Of a DNA stretch of 64,000 bases, positions 4,977-22,879 are shown piece by piece. Origin of the DNA: Chthoniobacteraceae bacterium (GTDB lineage Bacteria; Verrucomicrobiota; Verrucomicrobiia; Chthoniobacterales; Chthoniobacteraceae); assembly GCA_028293625.1 (NCBI GenBank), contig JAQGOL010000035.1, positions 124,001 to 188,000 of the forward strand. The letters run 5' to 3'. Under the pieces are notes generated by a model. That model saw only the letters and a list, made by a program, of their open reading frames with translations. It was not told where the DNA came from and ran no database searches. Both the position numbers and the translations under genes were made by a program. Each line of letters opens with the position of its first letter. Position 1 is the first letter of the stretch.

Positions 4977-7427
4977 TTAATGGTTGAAGATGAATTCCTT
5001 GGCGTTGAGCAAGGCCCAGAAGATGTCGGTAAACACGGCGGGTTGCTGCTCAGTCACACCCCAATTTGGCTCCAGATGGATCAGCTCCTCTTCCGTGGGG
5101 AATCGGCCAAAGCTGCGCAGGTAAAGTTCAGTGACCAGATCGCGCGGCGTTTTTTTGTCGTTGAGCAGCTTGGTAATGAGGCCGCCCTGGACGATCTTGT
5201 TTTCAATGGTATCGCCATTGATCAAATGGAGCGCCTGGCTGAGCGTTGGCCCCACTTCTTCCCGCGAACAAAGCGTCTCGCGTGTGGCACGGCCAAATGT
5301 GGTCAGGAAGTAGTTCGATGTTTTGCCATCGGCAATTTCCACGGCACGCGCTCCGGAAGGCAGTCCGCGGAATTTATTGCGCGTATCGGTGACTTGCGTG
5401 ATGCAATCGAACATCACCTCGGCGCGCATCCGGCGGATGGTAGCATGGGCAAAGTTGCGGCTGTCGAGTTCGTTCGATTCATTGGGCCGGGTGGTGAGCT
5501 GATAAGTGCGCGAATTACAGATGTCCCGCACGATGCGGCGCAGGTCATAGTTGTATTCGACAATCTTTTTGCCCAACGCTTCGAGAAGCTCTGGATTGGA
5601 CGCGGGATTGGAAATGCGCACGTCGTCTACCGGTTCCACGATTCCGCGGCCCATGTATTGCGCCCAGATCAGGTTGGCAATATGCCGGGGGAAATAGGGG
5701 TTCTCGGGCGAAGCGATCCAGTCGGCAAGCACTTTGCGGCGGTCTTTGTTTTTGGTATCGGGTGCTTCGCCGCCAAGGAACTTGGGTGGGACTACGGTGT
5801 CACCGATGGGATGCTTGGATTCTCCCGAACCGCTGTTGAAAAGGATCCGCTCCCGGGGATCCTCGCCCGCTTTGCGCCCGATCTGGGTGAAGAAAGCAAC
5901 AAACCCACGGTAATCAGCCATGGTCCAGCGATCAAACGGGTGGTTATGGCATTGCGAGCACTGGATGCGGATTCCGAAAAAGGCCTGCGCGGTATCCTCG
6001 GCCAGTTTTAGCGGATCCTGTTCAAGCTGGTAATAATTGGCGGCCGGATTTTCCAATGTACTGCCGCTGGCGCTCAGCAATTCGCGGGCGATTTCGTTGA
6101 TCGGAACATTTTTTCCAAGTTGCTCCCGCAGCCAGGTGTAATAGGTCAGCGTCGCCTTGTAGCTGCCGTTGTTTTGCTCCGTGCGGACCTGAAGCAATTC
6201 GCTCCATTTCATGGCCCACATGTCGACAAATTCGCTGCGTTGAAGCAGTTCATCAATCTTGCCGGCCCTTTTGGTGGAAGAAGGATCGGCTACGAACTGG
6301 CGCACCTGATCGGTTGAGGGAAGCGTGCCAGTGATATCGAGGAATGCGCGCCGCAAAAAGGTCTCATCGTTGCAGACTTCACTTGGGGTAATCCGCAGGT
6401 TGCGCAGTTTCTGGTCAACGAGGACGTCTACAAAATTGCGTTCCTCGACCGGAGGCCACTGGTATTCGAGCGCCTTTGGAATGACGATCACCTGCGAGCC
6501 GACTGTAAACGTGGCAAAACGCGCCATGACGAACGCCTCGCCGCGCTGGCCGGTGGTGATCGTGCCATCATTGGCCACCTTGGCGGACGATTCGTTGCTG
6601 GTCAGGAACAATGCCAGCGTGCTGACATCGCGATCGGTGCCGTCGGAATAAAAAGCGCGCACCGACATCTTAAAGTTCTGACCCGGGCTTTCGAGCAGGA
6701 GCTGTTTTGGCAGGATTTCAAGCCGGGTGACAGTTGCCACCGTCGGGGGATCGTTGGGAGCGCCCGCTTCCAGCCAGCGCTGGAATGTGTTGGCCAGTTC
6801 GCTTCCTTTTTCAAAAAGTTTGCCGCCGGTGTGCGGGGCTTCGCCGGTCGATTTGGTCAGCAGCATCGAATCCTCGGGGATCGCCAGGTTGATGCGGCGG
6901 CCGGAGAGCTCGCGAGTCAGGCGATAATGATCGCCTTCGGGATCAAAGCCCCAGAGCGAAAGCCGGAAGCCATCCTGGCCGCGTGCGGCGCCGTGGCAGC
7001 GATTGCACTCCGCCTTCATAAAGACAGGCATCACATCAAGGCGAAAGCTGATGGGCTGTTCAACCGTGGCCTCTTCCACCTTGACGGCTACTTCAGCCGT
7101 CTTCCCTTTCCACTCGATTTTCACCTGCGTATTGCCATCGGCAAGCGGCAACACAATCCCTTTTTCAATCTTCGCCTTGGAAGGATCAACAACGGTAAAC
7201 TTCGCTTCACCGGTCACATCGCGATGGACGCCGTTTGCTTCAGTCATCCGCACCACGAGCGACTGTTTGTCCCGGGAACTCTTAAGATTGACGTCCGCGG
7301 GAAAAACCTCGAAGTCGGTGTTAATCGCCGCGTGCCCGGTCCCGAGCATTGCGGCAAAAGCGGCAGTATGAGCGGCCGCGCGCAGCCGTGAGGAAAAGGT
7401 GGAAATGAACGGTGTGAAGGGGTTCAT
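4977..7427 (-). CDS. DUF1549/DUF1553 cytochrome-type secreted protein
   Basis: An 816-residue exported protein. An N-terminal hydrophobic segment (about 15-33) acts as signal. A beta-rich domain runs over 40-120, a planctomycete cytochrome c domain carries haem motif CNRCH at 141-145, and a Big_2-like Ig domain covers roughly 233-317. The DUF1549 and DUF1553 regions take up the rest. A second haem-type motif, CSQCHNHPFD, is at 490-499, and the DUF1553 core has ENPYFPRHIANLIWAQYMGRG. It sits between the PPC-domain gene (45 bases upstream) and the cytochrome-WD40 gene (6 bases downstream), and the whole set is likely one transcript. The family is common in planctomycetes and verrucomicrobia and is often linked to polysaccharide breakdown, but its exact activity is not known. 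Confidence 0.93.
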   Translation of the reverse strand: MNPFTPFISTFSSRLRAAAHTAAFAAMLGTGHAAINTDFEVFPADVNLKSSRDKQSLVVRMTEANGVHRDVTGEAKFTVVDPSKAKIEKGIVLPLADGNTQVKIEWKGKTAEVAVKVEEATVEQPISFRLDVMPVFMKAECNRCHGAARGQDGFRLSLWGFDPEGDHYRLTRELSGRRINLAIPEDSMLLTKSTGEAPHTGGKLFEKGSELANTFQRWLEAGAPNDPPTVATVTRLEILPKQLLLESPGQNFKMSVRAFYSDGTDRDVSTLALFLTSNESSAKVANDGTITTGQRGEAFVMARFATFTVGSQVIVIPKALEYQWPPVEERNFVDVLVDQKLRNLRITPSEVCNDETFLRRAFLDITGTLPSTDQVRQFVADPSSTKRAGKIDELLQRSEFVDMWAMKWSELLQVRTEQNNGSYKATLTYYTWLREQLGKNVPINEIARELLSASGSTLENPAANYYQLEQDPLKLAEDTAQAFFGIRIQCSQCHNHPFDRWTMADYRGFVAFFTQIGRKAGEDPRERILFNSGSGESKHPIGDTVVPPKFLGGEAPDTKNKDRRKVLADWIASPENPYFPRHIANLIWAQYMGRGIVEPVDDVRISNPASNPELLEALGKKIVEYNYDLRRIVRDICNSRTYQLTTRPNESNELDSRNFAHATIRRMRAEVMFDCITQVTDTRNKFRGLPSGARAVEIADGKTSNYFLTTFGRATRETLCSREEVGPTLSQALHLINGDTIENKIVQGGLITKLLNDKKTPRDLVTELYLRSFGRFPTEEELIHLEPNWGVTEQQPAVFTDIFWALLNAKEFIFNH

Positions 7428-15530: not shown

Positions 15531-15566
15531 AACCGGAATAGTTCCCTGGAACTATTCGCCTCGGTT
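15531..15566 (-). terminator. Strong hairpin after the GS-like gene
   Basis: A perfect 10-base inverted repeat GAATAGTTCC / GGAACTATTC (15536-15545 and 15548-15557) with a 2-base spacer, extended by outer AACCG / CGGTT arms. It lies 24 bases past the stop of the glutamine-synthetase-like gene. On the minus strand it is followed by pyrimidine-rich sequence (TTTCCTTATCTGTTTC) rather than a clean T-run. It probably marks the transcript end of the three-gene operon. Confidence 0.5.
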
Positions 15567-15589: not shown

Positions 15590-16930
15590 TCAGATTTGTT
15601 CGAAGTAACGACGCCGTTCCCAATCTGTCACCGCGGAGTCAAAAGCCCGCGCTTCCAGCCTCGCCGTTTGGACATAGAAATCGATGGCGGCGTCGCCGAA
15701 CGCCTTGCGTGCCATGCGACTCGCATTGAGAAACTCGGCGGCTTCCTTTAACGATCCCGGGAGCGATGGCAGGGATGCATCGACATAGGCGTTGCCGTTA
15801 TAAATAGGCGGGCACTCCAGGTTTTCTTCAATGCCTGCCATGCCGGCGGCCATCATCGCTGCGAACGCAAGATAAGGGTTTGCGTCGGCGCCCGGCAGCC
15901 GGTTTTCGATCCGGAACGAAGATCCGCTTCCAACCACGCGGAAACCGACGGTGCGATTGTCGTGGGCCCATGCGAGCTTGGTGGGTGCCCAGCTTGCCGA
16001 CTGATAACGTTTGTATGAATTAATAGTCGGCGCAAAGAAATAGCCCAGATCTCGCGAGTATTTAATTAACCCAGCCAAAAACTGTTTAAAAAGCAACGAG
16101 CCGCCGGACTCGGTTCCAAAAAGGTTGGTCGCACCGCGCCAGAGGCTCAGATGAATGTGGCAACTGCTGCCGACTTCCTCCGCCCACGGTTTGGGCATGA
16201 AGGTAAGACATTTGCCGTGCTGCTCCACGATCTGCCGTGCGCCTTGTTTAAAAACGCAATGCAGGTCGCCGATCGGCAATGGTTCATCGTAAATGAAATT
16301 GACCTCATGCTGGCCCTTGCCCCATTCGCCTTTGGTCGACTCGATCGGGATCCGTGCAATCGGCATCTGGTTGCGAATGGCGCGCATGATCGGCTCGTCG
16401 CGCGCGGTTTGCATCGTGTGATAGTCGATGCGGTAATCGCTTGAAGGAGAAAGACCTCGGTAATCTTTCTGGAACGCATCGTGGGCGCTTTGGTTAAAAA
16501 GGAAAAACTCCAGTTCACTGGCGAGTTTGCATCCCAGGCTCTGCTCGGAAAGCTTTTCAATCTGGCGGCGCAACACCGAGCGCGGCGCTTCTTCCACCCG
16601 CCGCCCATCGTGCCCATAAAGATCACAAATCACCATGGCCGAGCCCGGTTCCCATGGCAGCACCCGCAAAGTTTCCAAATCGGGCCGCATCTCAAGGTCG
16701 CCATAGCCGGACTCCCAGTTGGCCAGCTGAAACCCTTCCTGAGGTTCCATCTCCAGGTTGAGGGTCAGCAGATAGTTGCACGAGTGAGTGCCCTCCTTTG
16801 CGGTGTGCTCAAGAAACTGGCTTGCCGTGATCCGTTTTCCAATGAGCCGTCCAAAGACATCGGGGAAGACGGTGACAACGGTGTCGATCTCGCCCGCGGC
16901 GATTTTGTTTTCAAGGTCGGAAAGGGTCAT
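15590..16930 (-). CDS. Glutamine-synthetase-family ligase (gamma-glutamyl-amide synthetase type)
   Basis: A 446-residue member of the glutamine synthetase superfamily. Visible active-site elements are the metal-binding SELEFFLF (138-145), GKGQHEVNF (204-212), SSCHIHLSLW (255-264), NSYKRY (304-309) and RIENRLPGADANPY (340-353). These enzymes use ATP to join the gamma-carboxyl of glutamate to ammonia or an amine. The sequence looks more like the PuuA/GlnA3/GlnA4-type gamma-glutamylamine ligases than housekeeping GlnA. The strongest hint is the context: third gene of an operon behind an aldehyde dehydrogenase (30 bases) and an iron alcohol dehydrogenase. The amine substrate is unknown; an amino alcohol such as ethanolamine is a reasonable idea. 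Confidence 0.85.
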   Translation of the reverse strand: MTLSDLENKIAAGEIDTVVTVFPDVFGRLIGKRITASQFLEHTAKEGTHSCNYLLTLNLEMEPQEGFQLANWESGYGDLEMRPDLETLRVLPWEPGSAMVICDLYGHDGRRVEEAPRSVLRRQIEKLSEQSLGCKLASELEFFLFNQSAHDAFQKDYRGLSPSSDYRIDYHTMQTARDEPIMRAIRNQMPIARIPIESTKGEWGKGQHEVNFIYDEPLPIGDLHCVFKQGARQIVEQHGKCLTFMPKPWAEEVGSSCHIHLSLWRGATNLFGTESGGSLLFKQFLAGLIKYSRDLGYFFAPTINSYKRYQSASWAPTKLAWAHDNRTVGFRVVGSGSSFRIENRLPGADANPYLAFAAMMAAGMAGIEENLECPPIYNGNAYVDASLPSLPGSLKEAAEFLNASRMARKAFGDAAIDFYVQTARLEARAFDSAVTDWERRRYFEQI

Positions 16931-16960
16931 AGGAAATAACGGGCTTTTAACGCGAAACCT

Positions 16961-18370
16961 TTACTCCGAAATATAAACGTTTTTTAATTCTGTGTAACCT
17001 TCCATCGCCGCAAAGCCGAGGTCGCGTCCCAGGCCGCTTTGTTTAAATCCGCCAAAGGGCGCCTCGACGTGAACGCTTGAATGGCTGTTGATGCTCAACA
17101 CGCCGCTTTCCACCCGGCGGGCAAGCCGCAAGGCGCGCTTTAAATCGTTGGTCCAGATTGAGCCGCTCAGTCCGTAAGGCGAATCGTTGACTTCATCGAG
17201 CAACGCCGCCTCGTTGTCAAACGGGCGGATACAGACGACCGGCCCAAAAACTTCCTCGCGCCAGATCGGATCTGACGGCTCAACGTCGAGCACCACCGCA
17301 GGATTGAGAAAATAGCCGCGCCCGTTCGGACGCTCACCACCCAGCGCGATACGGCGCCCGCTTTGGTTTAAAAATCGCTCGGAGTTCTCGCGTTGCCCGG
17401 CGGAAACCAGCGGGCCGATCTGGGTGTGATCAAGCGCCGGGTCGCCGACGATCAGGCCGCGTGTGGCGGAAAGAAAACGGTCGACGAATTGATCAAATAG
17501 AGAGCGTTCGACAAAGACGCGGCTTCGCGCGCAGCAATCCTGGCCGGCATTGGCAAAAACGCTCATGGGTGAACTGGCGGCGGCCGCGTCGAGGTCGGCA
17601 TCGGCAAAGACGATGTTCGGGCTTTTTCCTCCGAGCTCGAGCGAGATCCGTTTTAAACCGGGAGCCGCGAGCTGCATGATGCGGACGCCGATCGCCGTGG
17701 AACCGGTGAAGGAAACCTTGCGCACCAGAGGATGCTGCACAAGCGCGTCGCCAATCAGGCCGCCTGTGCCCGGCAACACCTGAAGCACTCCGGCCGGCAG
17801 TCCGGCTTCGTGCGCCAGTTCACCCAGCCGAAGCGCCGTGAGCGGGGAAAGCGTTGCCGGCTTGAGCACGACACAATTGCCCGCCGCAAGCGCGGGTGCT
17901 GTTTTCCAGCATGCAATCGGGAATGGGAAATTCCATGGCACGATGGCCGCCACCACGCCCATCGGCTGGCGTAATGTGAAATCAAATCCACCGCGCGCCA
18001 CCGGGATTGTCTGTCCGAAAAACTTTCCGATCGCGCCGGCATAATATTCGAATACGCGGGCGCCGAGGCCGATTTCATCGCGGGCATCGGCGATCGGTTT
18101 GCCGACATTGCGCATTTCGAGTTGAGCGAGTTCCTCGGCGTGTTGACGCAATATGGCGGCGATGGCAAAAAGGATCCCGGCCCGTTTGCCAGGCGCCATA
18201 TCGCGCCAGCCATTCTCAAAGGCACGGTTTGCCCCGCGGACGGCTTGATCGACCTCAGCGGGTTCCGCCGCGCCTACTTCACAAAAAGGTTCCTCAGTGG
18301 CCGGGTTAACCAGCACGATTGTCTGTTTGGTCGCCACGGAACCACCGTTAATAAAAGGCTGAATAATCAT
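16961..18370 (-). CDS. NAD(P)-dependent aldehyde dehydrogenase
   Basis: A 469-residue ALDH-superfamily enzyme of normal length that oxidises an aldehyde to the acid. The catalytic cysteine is Cys279 in NAGQDCC and the general base Glu245 in LELGGKSPN. The cofactor segment PWNFPF and the FTGSTAIG loop are also present, as is the C-terminal PFGGFKQSGLGRDLG that is typical of betaine- and gamma-glutamyl-aminobutyraldehyde-type dehydrogenases. It lies between the iron alcohol dehydrogenase (43 bases upstream) and the GS-like ligase. A role on a gamma-glutamylated or amino aldehyde is inferred from that context; substrate specificity cannot be read from the sequence. Confidence 0.92.
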   Translation of the reverse strand: MIIQPFINGGSVATKQTIVLVNPATEEPFCEVGAAEPAEVDQAVRGANRAFENGWRDMAPGKRAGILFAIAAILRQHAEELAQLEMRNVGKPIADARDEIGLGARVFEYYAGAIGKFFGQTIPVARGGFDFTLRQPMGVVAAIVPWNFPFPIACWKTAPALAAGNCVVLKPATLSPLTALRLGELAHEAGLPAGVLQVLPGTGGLIGDALVQHPLVRKVSFTGSTAIGVRIMQLAAPGLKRISLELGGKSPNIVFADADLDAAAASSPMSVFANAGQDCCARSRVFVERSLFDQFVDRFLSATRGLIVGDPALDHTQIGPLVSAGQRENSERFLNQSGRRIALGGERPNGRGYFLNPAVVLDVEPSDPIWREEVFGPVVCIRPFDNEAALLDEVNDSPYGLSGSIWTNDLKRALRLARRVESGVLSINSHSSVHVEAPFGGFKQSGLGRDLGFAAMEGYTELKNVYISE

Positions 18371-18413
18371 GGTTTTTCCAAGTCTGGAATGCGGGCTTTT
18401 TTACATGCTCCGC

Positions 18414-19529
18414 TCACATCGCGGCTTGATATAAGCCGCGCAAATCTTCGGCCGTGACCGGGACGGGATTGGTAAGATGGCAGCCATCTTCAAAGGCCTG
18501 CTCAACCAGGGCATCCAGATGCGAATCGTGAACCCCATGCGGACGCAGCCCGCCTTTGAGGCCGATTTCCTCAAGCAGCGCTCTGACCGCCTCGATGGTT
18601 GCGCGGTCATCGGCATTCCTGATTCCCAAAGCGATGCCCACCCGCTCGTAAAGTCCCGGTTTGCGAGCCGCGTTGAATTCCATGACCGGAAGCAAACAAA
18701 GCGCGTTGGCGAGGCCGTGGTGCAGTCCGCAAATGCTTGAGAGGGGATGGGCCAGGGAATGCGTGGCACCGAGATCTTTTTGAAAAGCAACACCGCCCAT
18801 CAGCGCGGCGATCTGCATCAGCCCGCGCGCCTCGATGTCGCCTCCATCGCGCACGGCGCGAGCCAGCGATCGCCCAATTAACTGAATGCCTTCCAATGCG
18901 ATTCCCTCGCACATCGGATGGAACACGGGCGAAGTAAACGACTCGATACAATGGGTGAGTGCATCAGCGCCGGTGGCCGCGGTGAGCTTGGCAGGCAGGG
19001 TGCGTGTCAGCTCCGGATCGAGGATCACCAGGCTTGGCAGCAACTCGGGATGAAAGAGCACCTTCTTGCGGCCATTTAAAATAATAACCGAGCTGCGTCC
19101 CACCTCGCTTCCCGTGCCGGCTGTGGTCGGGATTGCAATGCACGGGGCCAGTCCGCGCCAGTCGGCGGAAAAATCAAATTCGCGCAGCCTTAAGTTCGGT
19201 TTGAGGATTCGCAGCCGGACCGCTTTACCGACATCGAGCGCGCTGCCGCCTCCAAAAGCAATGATTCCATCGCAAGCCGCACCGCTGTAAGCGCGCGCCG
19301 CGCCATCGACATCGGCTTCAATTGGGTTGGGATGCACATTGGAAAAAATACCGCAACGTCCGCGCAGAACGGTTTCCAACGTGGCAAAGGCGCTTGTTGA
19401 AATCACGCCCGTATCGGTTACCACCAGCGGGTTTGAAACCCCAAGTCTGACAAGGTGTTCGGGCAATTCGCGCAGTGTGCCCGCGCCGAATCGGATGGTG
19501 GTCGGGAATGAGTAGGTTGCGGTATTCAT
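18414..19529 (-). CDS. Iron-containing alcohol dehydrogenase
   Basis: A 371-residue family-III (iron-activated) alcohol dehydrogenase that interconverts an alcohol and an aldehyde with NAD(P). The cofactor loop FGGGSALDVGKAV is visible. The metal-binding Asp and His residues are in GADALTHCIESF and in LAHPLSSICGLHHGLANAL. The start chosen is the ATG before NTATYSFPT, which fits the family; an in-frame extension of 55 residues runs into the divergent promoter region. It is the first gene of the operon with the aldehyde dehydrogenase and GS-like ligase, so it probably supplies the aldehyde. It is divergent from the secreted glycosidase-like gene, 152 bases apart. Confidence 0.92.
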   Translation of the reverse strand: MNTATYSFPTTIRFGAGTLRELPEHLVRLGVSNPLVVTDTGVISTSAFATLETVLRGRCGIFSNVHPNPIEADVDGAARAYSGAACDGIIAFGGGSALDVGKAVRLRILKPNLRLREFDFSADWRGLAPCIAIPTTAGTGSEVGRSSVIILNGRKKVLFHPELLPSLVILDPELTRTLPAKLTAATGADALTHCIESFTSPVFHPMCEGIALEGIQLIGRSLARAVRDGGDIEARGLMQIAALMGGVAFQKDLGATHSLAHPLSSICGLHHGLANALCLLPVMEFNAARKPGLYERVGIALGIRNADDRATIEAVRALLEEIGLKGGLRPHGVHDSHLDALVEQAFEDGCHLTNPVPVTAEDLRGLYQAAM

Positions 19530-19681
19530 AAGAATCAACTTCCAGCCAGGGCTCGGCTTAACCAGTGGAAGCTTTTGACGCAAGCTCCACAAGTTAACAA
19601 AATGATGGCTTGAACCACGCCGGCGCGCTTCAAAGACAACGGCGGCCGGCGGGTTACCTTCTCCAATTCGCCCCGATTTCG

Positions 19682-22600
19682 ATGATGCTCCCACAAAACT
19701 CCCGGTTGCCTTTTAACAACAAAACTCGCGGCTATCTCTTTCTCCTGATAGCAGCCGGCCTTGGTTTCGCCACAGCCAAGGGCGGAGAGACGATTTGGGT
19801 TGAAGCGGAAACACCGCTGAAATCGACCATGCATCGGCATCCCTGGTGGTATGATCAGGTCAAAACCGATTTGCTCTCGGGCGGTGCCTGGATTTCCAAC
19901 TTCAACGAAAAAGAAGGAACTGCCGAGTATGCGCTCGATGTGAAGGAAGCCGGAGGCTATAGCTTCTGGGTACGTGCAAACCCGACCGGCGCGGCTCTGG
20001 CTTATCAGTTGGATGGAGGACCATGGACTGAGATTGACCTTGGAAAAGAGCAGCGCGGCAACCAGAACATCGCCGCCGATAACAAGACCGATTTGCGCTA
20101 TATAGCTTGGTCAAAGGCCGGTGTTGTGCAGCTTGTCCCGGGTAAACATTCCATCGCGTTCAAGATGCATAGCGCCAACCAGAACCATGGCGGGCTCGAT
20201 TGTTTTGTTCTTACCACGGAAGCGTTCGTGCCCCAGGGGATCATGAAGCCGGGCATTCAGGAAGCCGCTGCCGACCCGGCCGACGCCATCTGGATTGAAG
20301 GCGAATCGGCTCTCCGCAATACCATGACACGCAATCCGTGGTGGTATGATCAGGTCAAAAAAGAGGTGCTCTCCGGCGGAGATTGGATCTCTAATTTTAG
20401 CAAGGATAAACAAGGCACCGCTGAGTATGACTTCACGGTCCTAAAGCCCGACAACTACGCATTTTGGGTGCGGGCTAATCCGAGCGTGGACGCCAAACTT
20501 GAATGGCAACTCGATGAGGCCGCCTGGGTTCCGGTCGACTTCAAGGACGCGCGCGGCAACCAGAATATCGCCGCCGATAACAAGCCCGACATGCGCTTTA
20601 TAGCCTGGGCCAAAGCCGGCGTCCCAAAACTTTCCGCAGGCAAACATACCATGCGCTTCCGCATGAACAGCGGCCCGGAGAAAAACAACCATGGCGGGCT
20701 CGATTGTTTTGTTCTGACGCGGATTCCATTTGTTCCGGCGGGAACAAGGAAACCGGCGCTCGCCAAGGAGGGCAGCGGCCCGGCTGATTGGTTTCCGTTA
20801 CTTGCTGACAACGATCCTTTTTCGCCGCAATCGGTGATCGACATGTCGCGGCTGGTTCCTGCGCCGGCCGGGCAGTTTGGTGTGCTGCGTGCAATGGGCA
20901 AGGATCTGCGTTTTGAGAAATCGGCGGCGCCCGTGAAGTTATGGGGCTGCGGCTCCAATGTGGAGCCGGGCCGTTATTCGCGCGAACAGCTTACTCAACG
21001 GATCAAGTATCTGCGGAAGTTTGGTATCAACGTGGTGCGCCAGCATCCTCTCTTCGATGAGCTCAGTACTAACGGTGCCATAGACATGACCAAGCTCGAC
21101 CAATTTGACTGGTATTTTGCCGAACTTAAGAAGAACGGCATCTATATGGATTGGTCGGTCTTCTATCATTTCACCATTGGAACAAAAGACGGTTACGACG
21201 CCGCTCTTTATGCCGAGCTTGAGGGCGGCGCGGAGAAAAAAGATACTTACGGATTCATTACGGTTTCCCCCAAACTCTGGGAGATCCGCAACCGCACTTT
21301 GGTCGAGTTACTTAACCATAAAAATCCATATACCGGCCTCCGCTACGCCGATGATCCGGCACTTGCGATCGTGGAGATGCAGAATGAAGACAGCGTCTTT
21401 TTCTGGAATCCGCTTGGCTGGATCGCGGAAGGTAAAAAAGCGCCGCAGCATTCCAAACAGCTGCGCAAGATGTGGGCTGCCTGCGTCAAAGAAAAATATA
21501 AATCCGACGAGGCGCTTAAACTTGCATGGGGCGGCTTGAAGGAAGGCGATTCAATCAAGACCGATGAGCTTAAACTCATGGGACCATGGGAGCTCGATGG
21601 CAAAGGCCCGCGTGGTCCGTTTTCCGGCCAGGAAAAACGCGCCGGCGATTTCATCGAATTTCTAACCGGGATGCAGCGTGGCTTTTATGAGCAATGCGAA
21701 AAAGCCATTCGCGCCACGGGATTTAAGGCGATCACGATGACAACCGCCTGGCAGGTCGGCGGCGCCGCGACGGATCCGGCTAACACTTTTACCGACACGG
21801 TAGGCAGTATGATTGACCGGCATAACTACGCGGGCGGCGGTGCGGGCGGGCATGGGGTGGCCGAGGGGAAGGTCAATAACGAATCGCATCTTCCCAAGCC
21901 CGGCAGCGGCATCTTTTCAATCGGAATGAAGCAGGTCGAAACCAAACCCTTTTGCGTAAGTGAATGGACTCAATCCGCTCCCAATCAATGGAAACTTGAA
22001 GCGGCGCCAATCATGGCTTTTTACGGGATGGGACTTCAGGGATGGGATGCGTCCTTTCACTTTATTGAAAGCGGGACCCGGCTTGGTGACGGCTGGCCAG
22101 GGATGTCGAGTTACTCCACCGATACGCCCCATTATATCGGCCAGTTTCCCGCGCTCGCCTTTGCCCTCTACAACGGACATATCAGTGAGTCCCCGATTGT
22201 GGCCGCGCGCCGGCTTTCAAAAGCCGATCTCTTCACCGGGCTTGACGCGCTCAAGCAGGATTTCACCAAGGGCGGTTACGATATTAAAACGCTTCTTAAC
22301 GCAGGAGGCATTCCCGGTGAAGCTTTCGCAATTGGCCGCGTGACTGTCGGGTTCGATGGCGGCAAGAGCGAGCAGGCGGACTTCTCCAAGGCATGGAATG
22401 AGAACGCAAAAATCATTCAATCCGCCACCGGCGAGCTAACCTGGGACTACGGCCGCGAGGTTATTACCGTGCATACTCCGAAGACCCAGGCTGTAATTGG
22501 CAAAAGCGGTGGCCGTAGTTTCCAGCTTCCTGGAGTAGCGGTGAACTTCAAAACGCCATTTGTGAGCACAATCTTTACGGCTCTTGATAACCTCCCGCTG

Positions 22601-22879
22601 GCGGAGTCGCGTCACATCCTCATTACCGCCCTGGCACAGGATAAACAGTCCGGGACTCGCTACAATGCTGATGGCACGGTTCTGGAAGCGACCGGCACTG
22701 CGCCGCTCCTGATGGAGCCCGTGCAGGCAACGCTGAAATTTACCGGGCCGAAACCTGCACAGGTCAACGCGCTTGATCATTACGGCGTGCCGACGGGTAA
22801 AAGCGTTCCGATTGCCGCGGATGGCAGCCTTATTCTCGATGGGACTTACCGCGCTTACTATTATGAAGTGAAACGCTGA
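19682..22879 (+). CDS. Secreted clan-A glycoside-hydrolase-like protein with duplicated N-terminal module
   Basis: About 1065 residues. The start is one of two adjacent ATGs (19682 or 19685), giving a signal peptide with core YLFLLIAAGLGFATA. Two tandem modules of about 160 residues follow, each opening with IWVEAE or IWIEGE and sharing PWWYDQVK, GNQNIAADNK and NHGGLDCFVLT. They resemble carbohydrate-binding modules. The remaining (beta/alpha)-barrel region fits GH clan A. The likely acid/base is the glutamate in AIVEMQNEDSVFF and the likely nucleophile the glutamate in FCVSEWTQ. A beta-rich tail follows. The GH family is not identified and the substrate is unknown. The last 19 bases overlap the convergent membrane-protein gene. 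Confidence 0.85.
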   Translation: MMLPQNSRLPFNNKTRGYLFLLIAAGLGFATAKGGETIWVEAETPLKSTMHRHPWWYDQVKTDLLSGGAWISNFNEKEGTAEYALDVKEAGGYSFWVRANPTGAALAYQLDGGPWTEIDLGKEQRGNQNIAADNKTDLRYIAWSKAGVVQLVPGKHSIAFKMHSANQNHGGLDCFVLTTEAFVPQGIMKPGIQEAAADPADAIWIEGESALRNTMTRNPWWYDQVKKEVLSGGDWISNFSKDKQGTAEYDFTVLKPDNYAFWVRANPSVDAKLEWQLDEAAWVPVDFKDARGNQNIAADNKPDMRFIAWAKAGVPKLSAGKHTMRFRMNSGPEKNNHGGLDCFVLTRIPFVPAGTRKPALAKEGSGPADWFPLLADNDPFSPQSVIDMSRLVPAPAGQFGVLRAMGKDLRFEKSAAPVKLWGCGSNVEPGRYSREQLTQRIKYLRKFGINVVRQHPLFDELSTNGAIDMTKLDQFDWYFAELKKNGIYMDWSVFYHFTIGTKDGYDAALYAELEGGAEKKDTYGFITVSPKLWEIRNRTLVELLNHKNPYTGLRYADDPALAIVEMQNEDSVFFWNPLGWIAEGKKAPQHSKQLRKMWAACVKEKYKSDEALKLAWGGLKEGDSIKTDELKLMGPWELDGKGPRGPFSGQEKRAGDFIEFLTGMQRGFYEQCEKAIRATGFKAITMTTAWQVGGAATDPANTFTDTVGSMIDRHNYAGGGAGGHGVAEGKVNNESHLPKPGSGIFSIGMKQVETKPFCVSEWTQSAPNQWKLEAAPIMAFYGMGLQGWDASFHFIESGTRLGDGWPGMSSYSTDTPHYIGQFPALAFALYNGHISESPIVAARRLSKADLFTGLDALKQDFTKGGYDIKTLLNAGGIPGEAFAIGRVTVGFDGGKSEQADFSKAWNENAKIIQSATGELTWDYGREVITVHTPKTQAVIGKSGGRSFQLPGVAVNFKTPFVSTIFTALDNLPLAESRHILITALAQDKQSGTRYNADGTVLEATGTAPLLMEPVQATLKFTGPKPAQVNALDHYGVPTGKSVPIAADGSLILDGTYRAYYYEVKR

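Follow-up and report, generated by a model that had tools for sequence, protein, structure and literature searches.

The window analysed here, a stretch of 64,000 nucleotides from the draft genome of a Chthoniobacteraceae bacterium (contig JAQGOL010000035.1), carries on its minus strand an array of three genes encoding an Fe-alcohol dehydrogenase (Fe-ADH), an aldehyde dehydrogenase (ALDH) and a glutamine synthetase (GS)-like ligase:

18414-19529, minus strand: Fe-ADH, 371 amino acids (Pfam Fe-ADH, 141 bits; ADH_Fe_C, 150 bits)
16961-18370, minus strand: ALDH, 469 amino acids (Pfam Aldedh, 545 bits)
15590-16930, minus strand: GS-like gamma-glutamyl ligase, 446 amino acids (Pfam Gln-synt_C, 309 bits)
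15536-15557, minus strand: 9-bp inverted repeat with a terminator-like pattern about 33 bases past the ligase stop, a possible weak terminator

This order, and the gaps of exactly 43 and 30 bases given by the ORF calls, agree fully with a preliminary description of the locus, as does the lack of an amine oxidase: neither an amine-oxidase gene nor polyamine genes adjoin the operon, and the window holds no hydrolase or transporter gene beside the three genes. The length of the Fe-ADH is counted from an ATG; starting instead from a GTG at 19694 would lengthen the gene and make it overlap its divergent upstream neighbour (19640-22879, plus strand), which codes for a large, secreted-looking protein of more than 1,000 amino acids that matches nothing in Pfam at E 0.001. 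The gene downstream of the operon encodes an NHL-repeat protein. The inverted repeat shows no excess stability over shuffled sequence (z = -0.08), and its stem is not directly followed by a run of T. Against NCBIfam, neither the ligase nor the Fe-ADH reaches the cut-off of any model, and the same holds for the ALDH among the 25 models listed.

Among structures in the PDB, the ligase matches 11zs (413 bits) and 5dm3 (405 bits), the latter being, we assume, the ligase of Chromohalobacter salexigens; all other structures score 192 bits or less, and homology to these solved structures settles the fold. In phylogenetic trees it falls in a clade with 5dm3 and the Streptomyces GlnA4-type ligases (support 100/100, and 99 in a larger tree), within which the Verrucomicrobiota ligases make up a separate branch (100/100). 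Sister to the whole clade is IpuC, with PuuA and GlnA further out; as these two sit on long branches, their exact placement is unsure, and the closeness of the window ligase to 5dm3 and GlnA4 is independent of it. Identity is 46-50% to GlnA4-type ligases and only 44-49% to the aligned members outside the phylum, compared with 38% to IpuC and 30% to PuuA. The alignment indicates that the catalytic metal, glutamate and nucleotide (ATP) residues are kept except N264. At the ammonium-site columns of GlnA (D50, Y179 and E327) the ligase has E, a gap and W, the flap residue E327 thus being replaced by an aromatic residue, as in amine ligases. All 13 residue positions published for GlnA4 (PMC6529630) are matched, with a single offset, by the Streptomyces mutabilis ligase and three others in our set, so the clade includes GlnA4-type enzymes. 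A housekeeping GlnA is ruled out by the tree and by the lost ammonium-site residues; membership of PuuA or IpuC is likewise ruled out, since both lie outside the clade and the GGputSyn model reaches 207 bits against a cut-off of 650. The ligase is thus predicted to be an ethanolamine gamma-glutamylase, a label that, for a family we found in many phyla, would be better than 'glutamine synthetase'.

The Fe-ADH conserves the Asp and three His metal ligands (read one residue ahead of the column positions printed with the alignment). Outside the Verrucomicrobiota, its best relatives come from alphaproteobacterial ethanolamine operons. Among plasmids, they belong mostly to alphaproteobacterial operons with the same ligase family; coordinates or annotation place such a ligase next to at least 18 of the top 25 matches. 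Two Fe-ADHs with no such ligase nearby (L137 and L141) branch outside (support 87/91). One further relative has as neighbours a different GS-like gene and an ABC transporter of polyamine type. We predict that the Fe-ADH acts as a gamma-glutamylethanolamide dehydrogenase.

The ALDH contains the motifs of the catalytic Cys (NAGQDC) and Glu (LELGGK), and groups in a clade of GlnA4-type and isopropylamine (ipu)-type ALDHs (support 98/94) in a tree whose sequences come mostly from loci around ligases, unrelated ALDHs being thinly sampled. A comparison separate from the tree, which is a less biased test, gave ALDHs of actinobacterial GlnA4-type clusters and of ipu-type clusters as its best relatives outside the phylum. 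Identity is 52% to the ALDH of the Paenarthrobacter isopropylamine cluster, versus 31-36% to the ALDHs of the alphaproteobacterial operons and 41% to PuuC. It would be a gamma-glutamyl-aminoacetaldehyde dehydrogenase yielding gamma-glutamylglycine. Since the Fe-ADH is of the alphaproteobacterial type and the ALDH of the actinobacterial GlnA4/ipu type, the operon is a mosaic of two known versions.

The ADH-ALDH-GS array is not a chance arrangement, because its order is kept in four other Verrucomicrobiota loci (L047, L128, L129 and L130), with identities of 55-68% for the ADH, 66-74% for the ALDH and 58-63% for the GS-like ligase. The nearest named relatives of the ligase belong to Limisphaerales and other Verrucomicrobiota. 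Its distribution is sporadic, with strong matches in 3 genomes, the window's own counted, out of 388 sampled from the phylum; three genomes of the window's own genus gave none. One strong orthologue (64%) occurs in G009 (locus L130), which belongs to another genus of the family and where the three genes stand alone as in the window. The other three loci are larger. L047 reads GATase-ADH-ALDH-GS, and the same four genes in L128 (genome G318) and L129 (genome G101) face a TRAP set with DctQ, DctM and a binding protein:

L128, 9015-9740: class-I GATase-like gene directly upstream of the Fe-ADH gene
L129, 13413-14165: class-I GATase-like gene directly upstream of the Fe-ADH gene
L047, 6653-7384: class-I GATase-like gene directly upstream of the Fe-ADH gene
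L128, 9916-11214: serine dehydratase gene, divergent from the operon
L129, 14392-15687: serine dehydratase gene, divergent from the operon

The TRAP binding protein of G101 and G318 matches 4uab with 479 bits, the next match having 61; we take 4uab to be Csal_0678 with ethanolamine. The GATase-like gene next to the ADH in the three loci probably encodes a hydrolase for gamma-glutamylglycine that differs in type from FGase, and the divergent serine dehydratase is consistent with a route from glycine through serine to pyruvate. Just upstream of the L047 array, an Asparaginase_2-family protein with a signal-like N-terminus is encoded at 5580-6614.

Other members of the ligase family occur in different settings. 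The nearest relatives of the window ligase (L043, L044 and L045; 60-67% identity) have no ADH or ALDH in the neighbouring DNA. Operons of Paracoccus, Sinorhizobium, Ruegeria and Aminobacter comprise FGase, ligase, ALDH and Fe-ADH, in some cases joined by an RpiR regulator and a TRAP transporter or permease, and Thermomicrobium and Allomeiothermus have the ligase and an SDR with a permease, annotated 'eat' in Thermomicrobium. On a Paraburkholderia symbiotic plasmid (L030, 8980-10338), a ligase of the family with no ADH or ALDH has as neighbours a 2-aminoethylphosphonate transaminase, a homoserine succinyltransferase and a LysE-type exporter, and possibly acts on a different amine.

The draft genome that contains the window (6.8 Mb, 43 contigs, 96.4% complete) has two matches to PF00120, one being the operon ligase and the other a 717-aa frame at another place, which matches in part and is plausibly an assimilatory type-III GS. 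It has no match to EutB (PF06751), which favours the gamma-glutamylation reading and leaves no EutBC ethanolamine pathway as an alternative in this draft. Neither an FGase nor an EtoX orthologue was found in this draft, and the Eat permease model gave below cut-off matches only. An ethanolamine transporter is not, however, an absolute requirement of the pathway, since Streptomyces coelicolor is without the conserved ethanolamine permease gene (PMC6529630). With regard to hydrolysis, a C26 protein at C41 (124 bits) has 33% identity both to PuuD and to a C26 protein from a GlnA4-type cluster. GATase candidates elsewhere in the genome were rejected as clear orthologues of the cluster GATase, their matches being weak and partial.

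On the basis of the anatomy, homology, catalytic residues, phylogeny and conserved clusters observed directly, we infer the substrate, reaction direction, product and hydrolase of the pathway, and propose, with a probability of roughly 80%, that the operon is catabolic and serves the use of ethanolamine by gamma-glutamylation. The ligase would join L-glutamate and ethanolamine with ATP to give gamma-glutamylethanolamide, whose hydroxyl would be oxidised to the aldehyde by the Fe-ADH, an intermediate kept harmless because the amine is capped. The ALDH would then produce gamma-glutamylglycine, from which an amidohydrolase encoded outside the window would free glycine and regenerate glutamate, a step probably carried out in the relatives by the class-I GATase next to the ADH; glycine could then feed serine and pyruvate. 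Points against this reading are that the draft genome yields neither FGase nor EtoX and offers just weak or generic GATase and C26 candidates, that the nearest ligase relatives (L043-L045) stand apart from any ADH or ALDH in the neighbouring DNA, and that the window ligase reaches no more than 44-49% identity to the aligned members from other phyla. The preliminary description had suggested gamma-glutamylation of an amino alcohol such as ethanolamine or alaninol, and had advised placing the ligase in a tree with PuuA, IpuC, GlnA3 and GlnA4; its grouping with 5dm3 and the GlnA4-type enzymes, away from housekeeping GlnA, supports this proposal well. Two observations favour ethanolamine over alaninol: in two Verrucomicrobiota genomes the operon lies beside the gene for an EtoX-type (Csal_0678-like) ethanolamine-binding TRAP protein, and GlnA4, a member of the same clade, makes gamma-glutamylethanolamide in Streptomyces, with a reported specificity for ethanolamine (Km 0.47 mM; PMC6529630). 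Ethanolamine is very likely the substrate, judging from relatives rather than from the window's own genome.

The same chemistry could act on another small amino alcohol (such as alaninol, 3-aminopropanol or serinol), in which case the product would be not glycine but a different amino acid, for instance alanine. Alaninol derivatives are intermediates in the isopropylamine pathway, and the kinship of the ALDH with its Paenarthrobacter counterpart, together with the lack of a linked ethanolamine transporter in the window, speaks for such a substrate; yet IpuC stands outside the ligase clade, and both the Csal_0678-type protein linked to the operon in two related genomes and the specificity of GlnA4 point to ethanolamine, so that we consider this possibility unlikely. 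Considerably less probable still is a ligase acting on some other amine, a mono- or polyamine, with both dehydrogenases serving unrelated alcohols and aldehydes: GS-like amine ligases do vary in substrate and one Fe-ADH relative neighbours polyamine-type transport, but amine-oxidase or polyamine genes do not adjoin the operon, and each of the three has its closest counterparts in gamma-glutamyl clusters. Highly improbable, too, is a glutamine synthetase of assimilatory or accessory kind standing with unrelated dehydrogenases; the Gln-synt_C fold and sub-cutoff NCBIfam matches that include GlnA-type models are in keeping with it, but against it speak the change of E327 to Trp, the loss of N264 and Y179, the tree that excludes GlnA, and the 717-aa frame as the genome's sole other PF00120 match.

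Ethanolamine gamma-glutamylation itself is already known in other phyla. It has been demonstrated in C. salexigens and A. tumefaciens, according to work cited in PMC10132767; in Phaeobacter, phosphorylethanolamine induces an operon that encodes the ligase, an ALDH and a gamma-glutamylethanolamide dehydrogenase, and a value of 7.9 uM is given for the binding of ethanolamine by EtoX (PMC10132767). The C. salexigens EtoX homologue, with which Csal_0678 is named, is also described there as binding ethanolamine (PMC10132767). In the open-access literature searched, we found no published report of this route in Verrucomicrobiota. What is new is its probable occurrence in this phylum, the reversed gene order, the mosaic of two known versions and a putative third hydrolase type. 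We lean slightly towards a distinct verrucomicrobial version, in which an Fe-ADH and an EtoX transporter of proteobacterial type are combined with an ALDH of GlnA4/ipu type and with a class-I GATase as third hydrolase type, coupled to serine dehydratase; in the window's family it would be cut to three genes that depend on uptake and hydrolysis encoded elsewhere. The operon would extend to Verrucomicrobiota a way of using a common membrane-lipid fragment that does without Eut.

Among known systems, the E. coli Puu putrescine pathway shares the logic of ligase and ALDH, but PuuA lies outside the clade, PuuC is 41% identical, and an alcohol dehydrogenase takes the place of the amine oxidase PuuB. 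The isopropylamine cluster has a related ALDH and the same glutamylation logic, but its ligase is of another clade, and no P450 or ferredoxin stands beside the window genes. The S. coelicolor GlnA4 cluster (SDR, ALDH, glnA4, EpuRI, transporter and GATase) has both the ligase clade and the ALDH clade in common with the operon, which differs in having an Fe-ADH for the SDR and in being without regulator, transporter and hydrolase. With the operon of C. salexigens and Phaeobacter MED193 (RpiR, GGAH hydrolase, EtoVWX TRAP, ligase, ALDH and alcohol dehydrogenase), the window shares the ligase subfamily, an ALDH and, as seen in annotated alphaproteobacterial operons, the Fe-ADH subfamily, and two Verrucomicrobiota relatives share the EtoX-type TRAP binding protein; in contrast, the window lacks RpiR, FGase and TRAP, its order is reversed (ADH-ALDH-GS), and its ALDH belongs to another subfamily, which suggests an exchange of dehydrogenase modules between the proteobacterial and actinobacterial versions.
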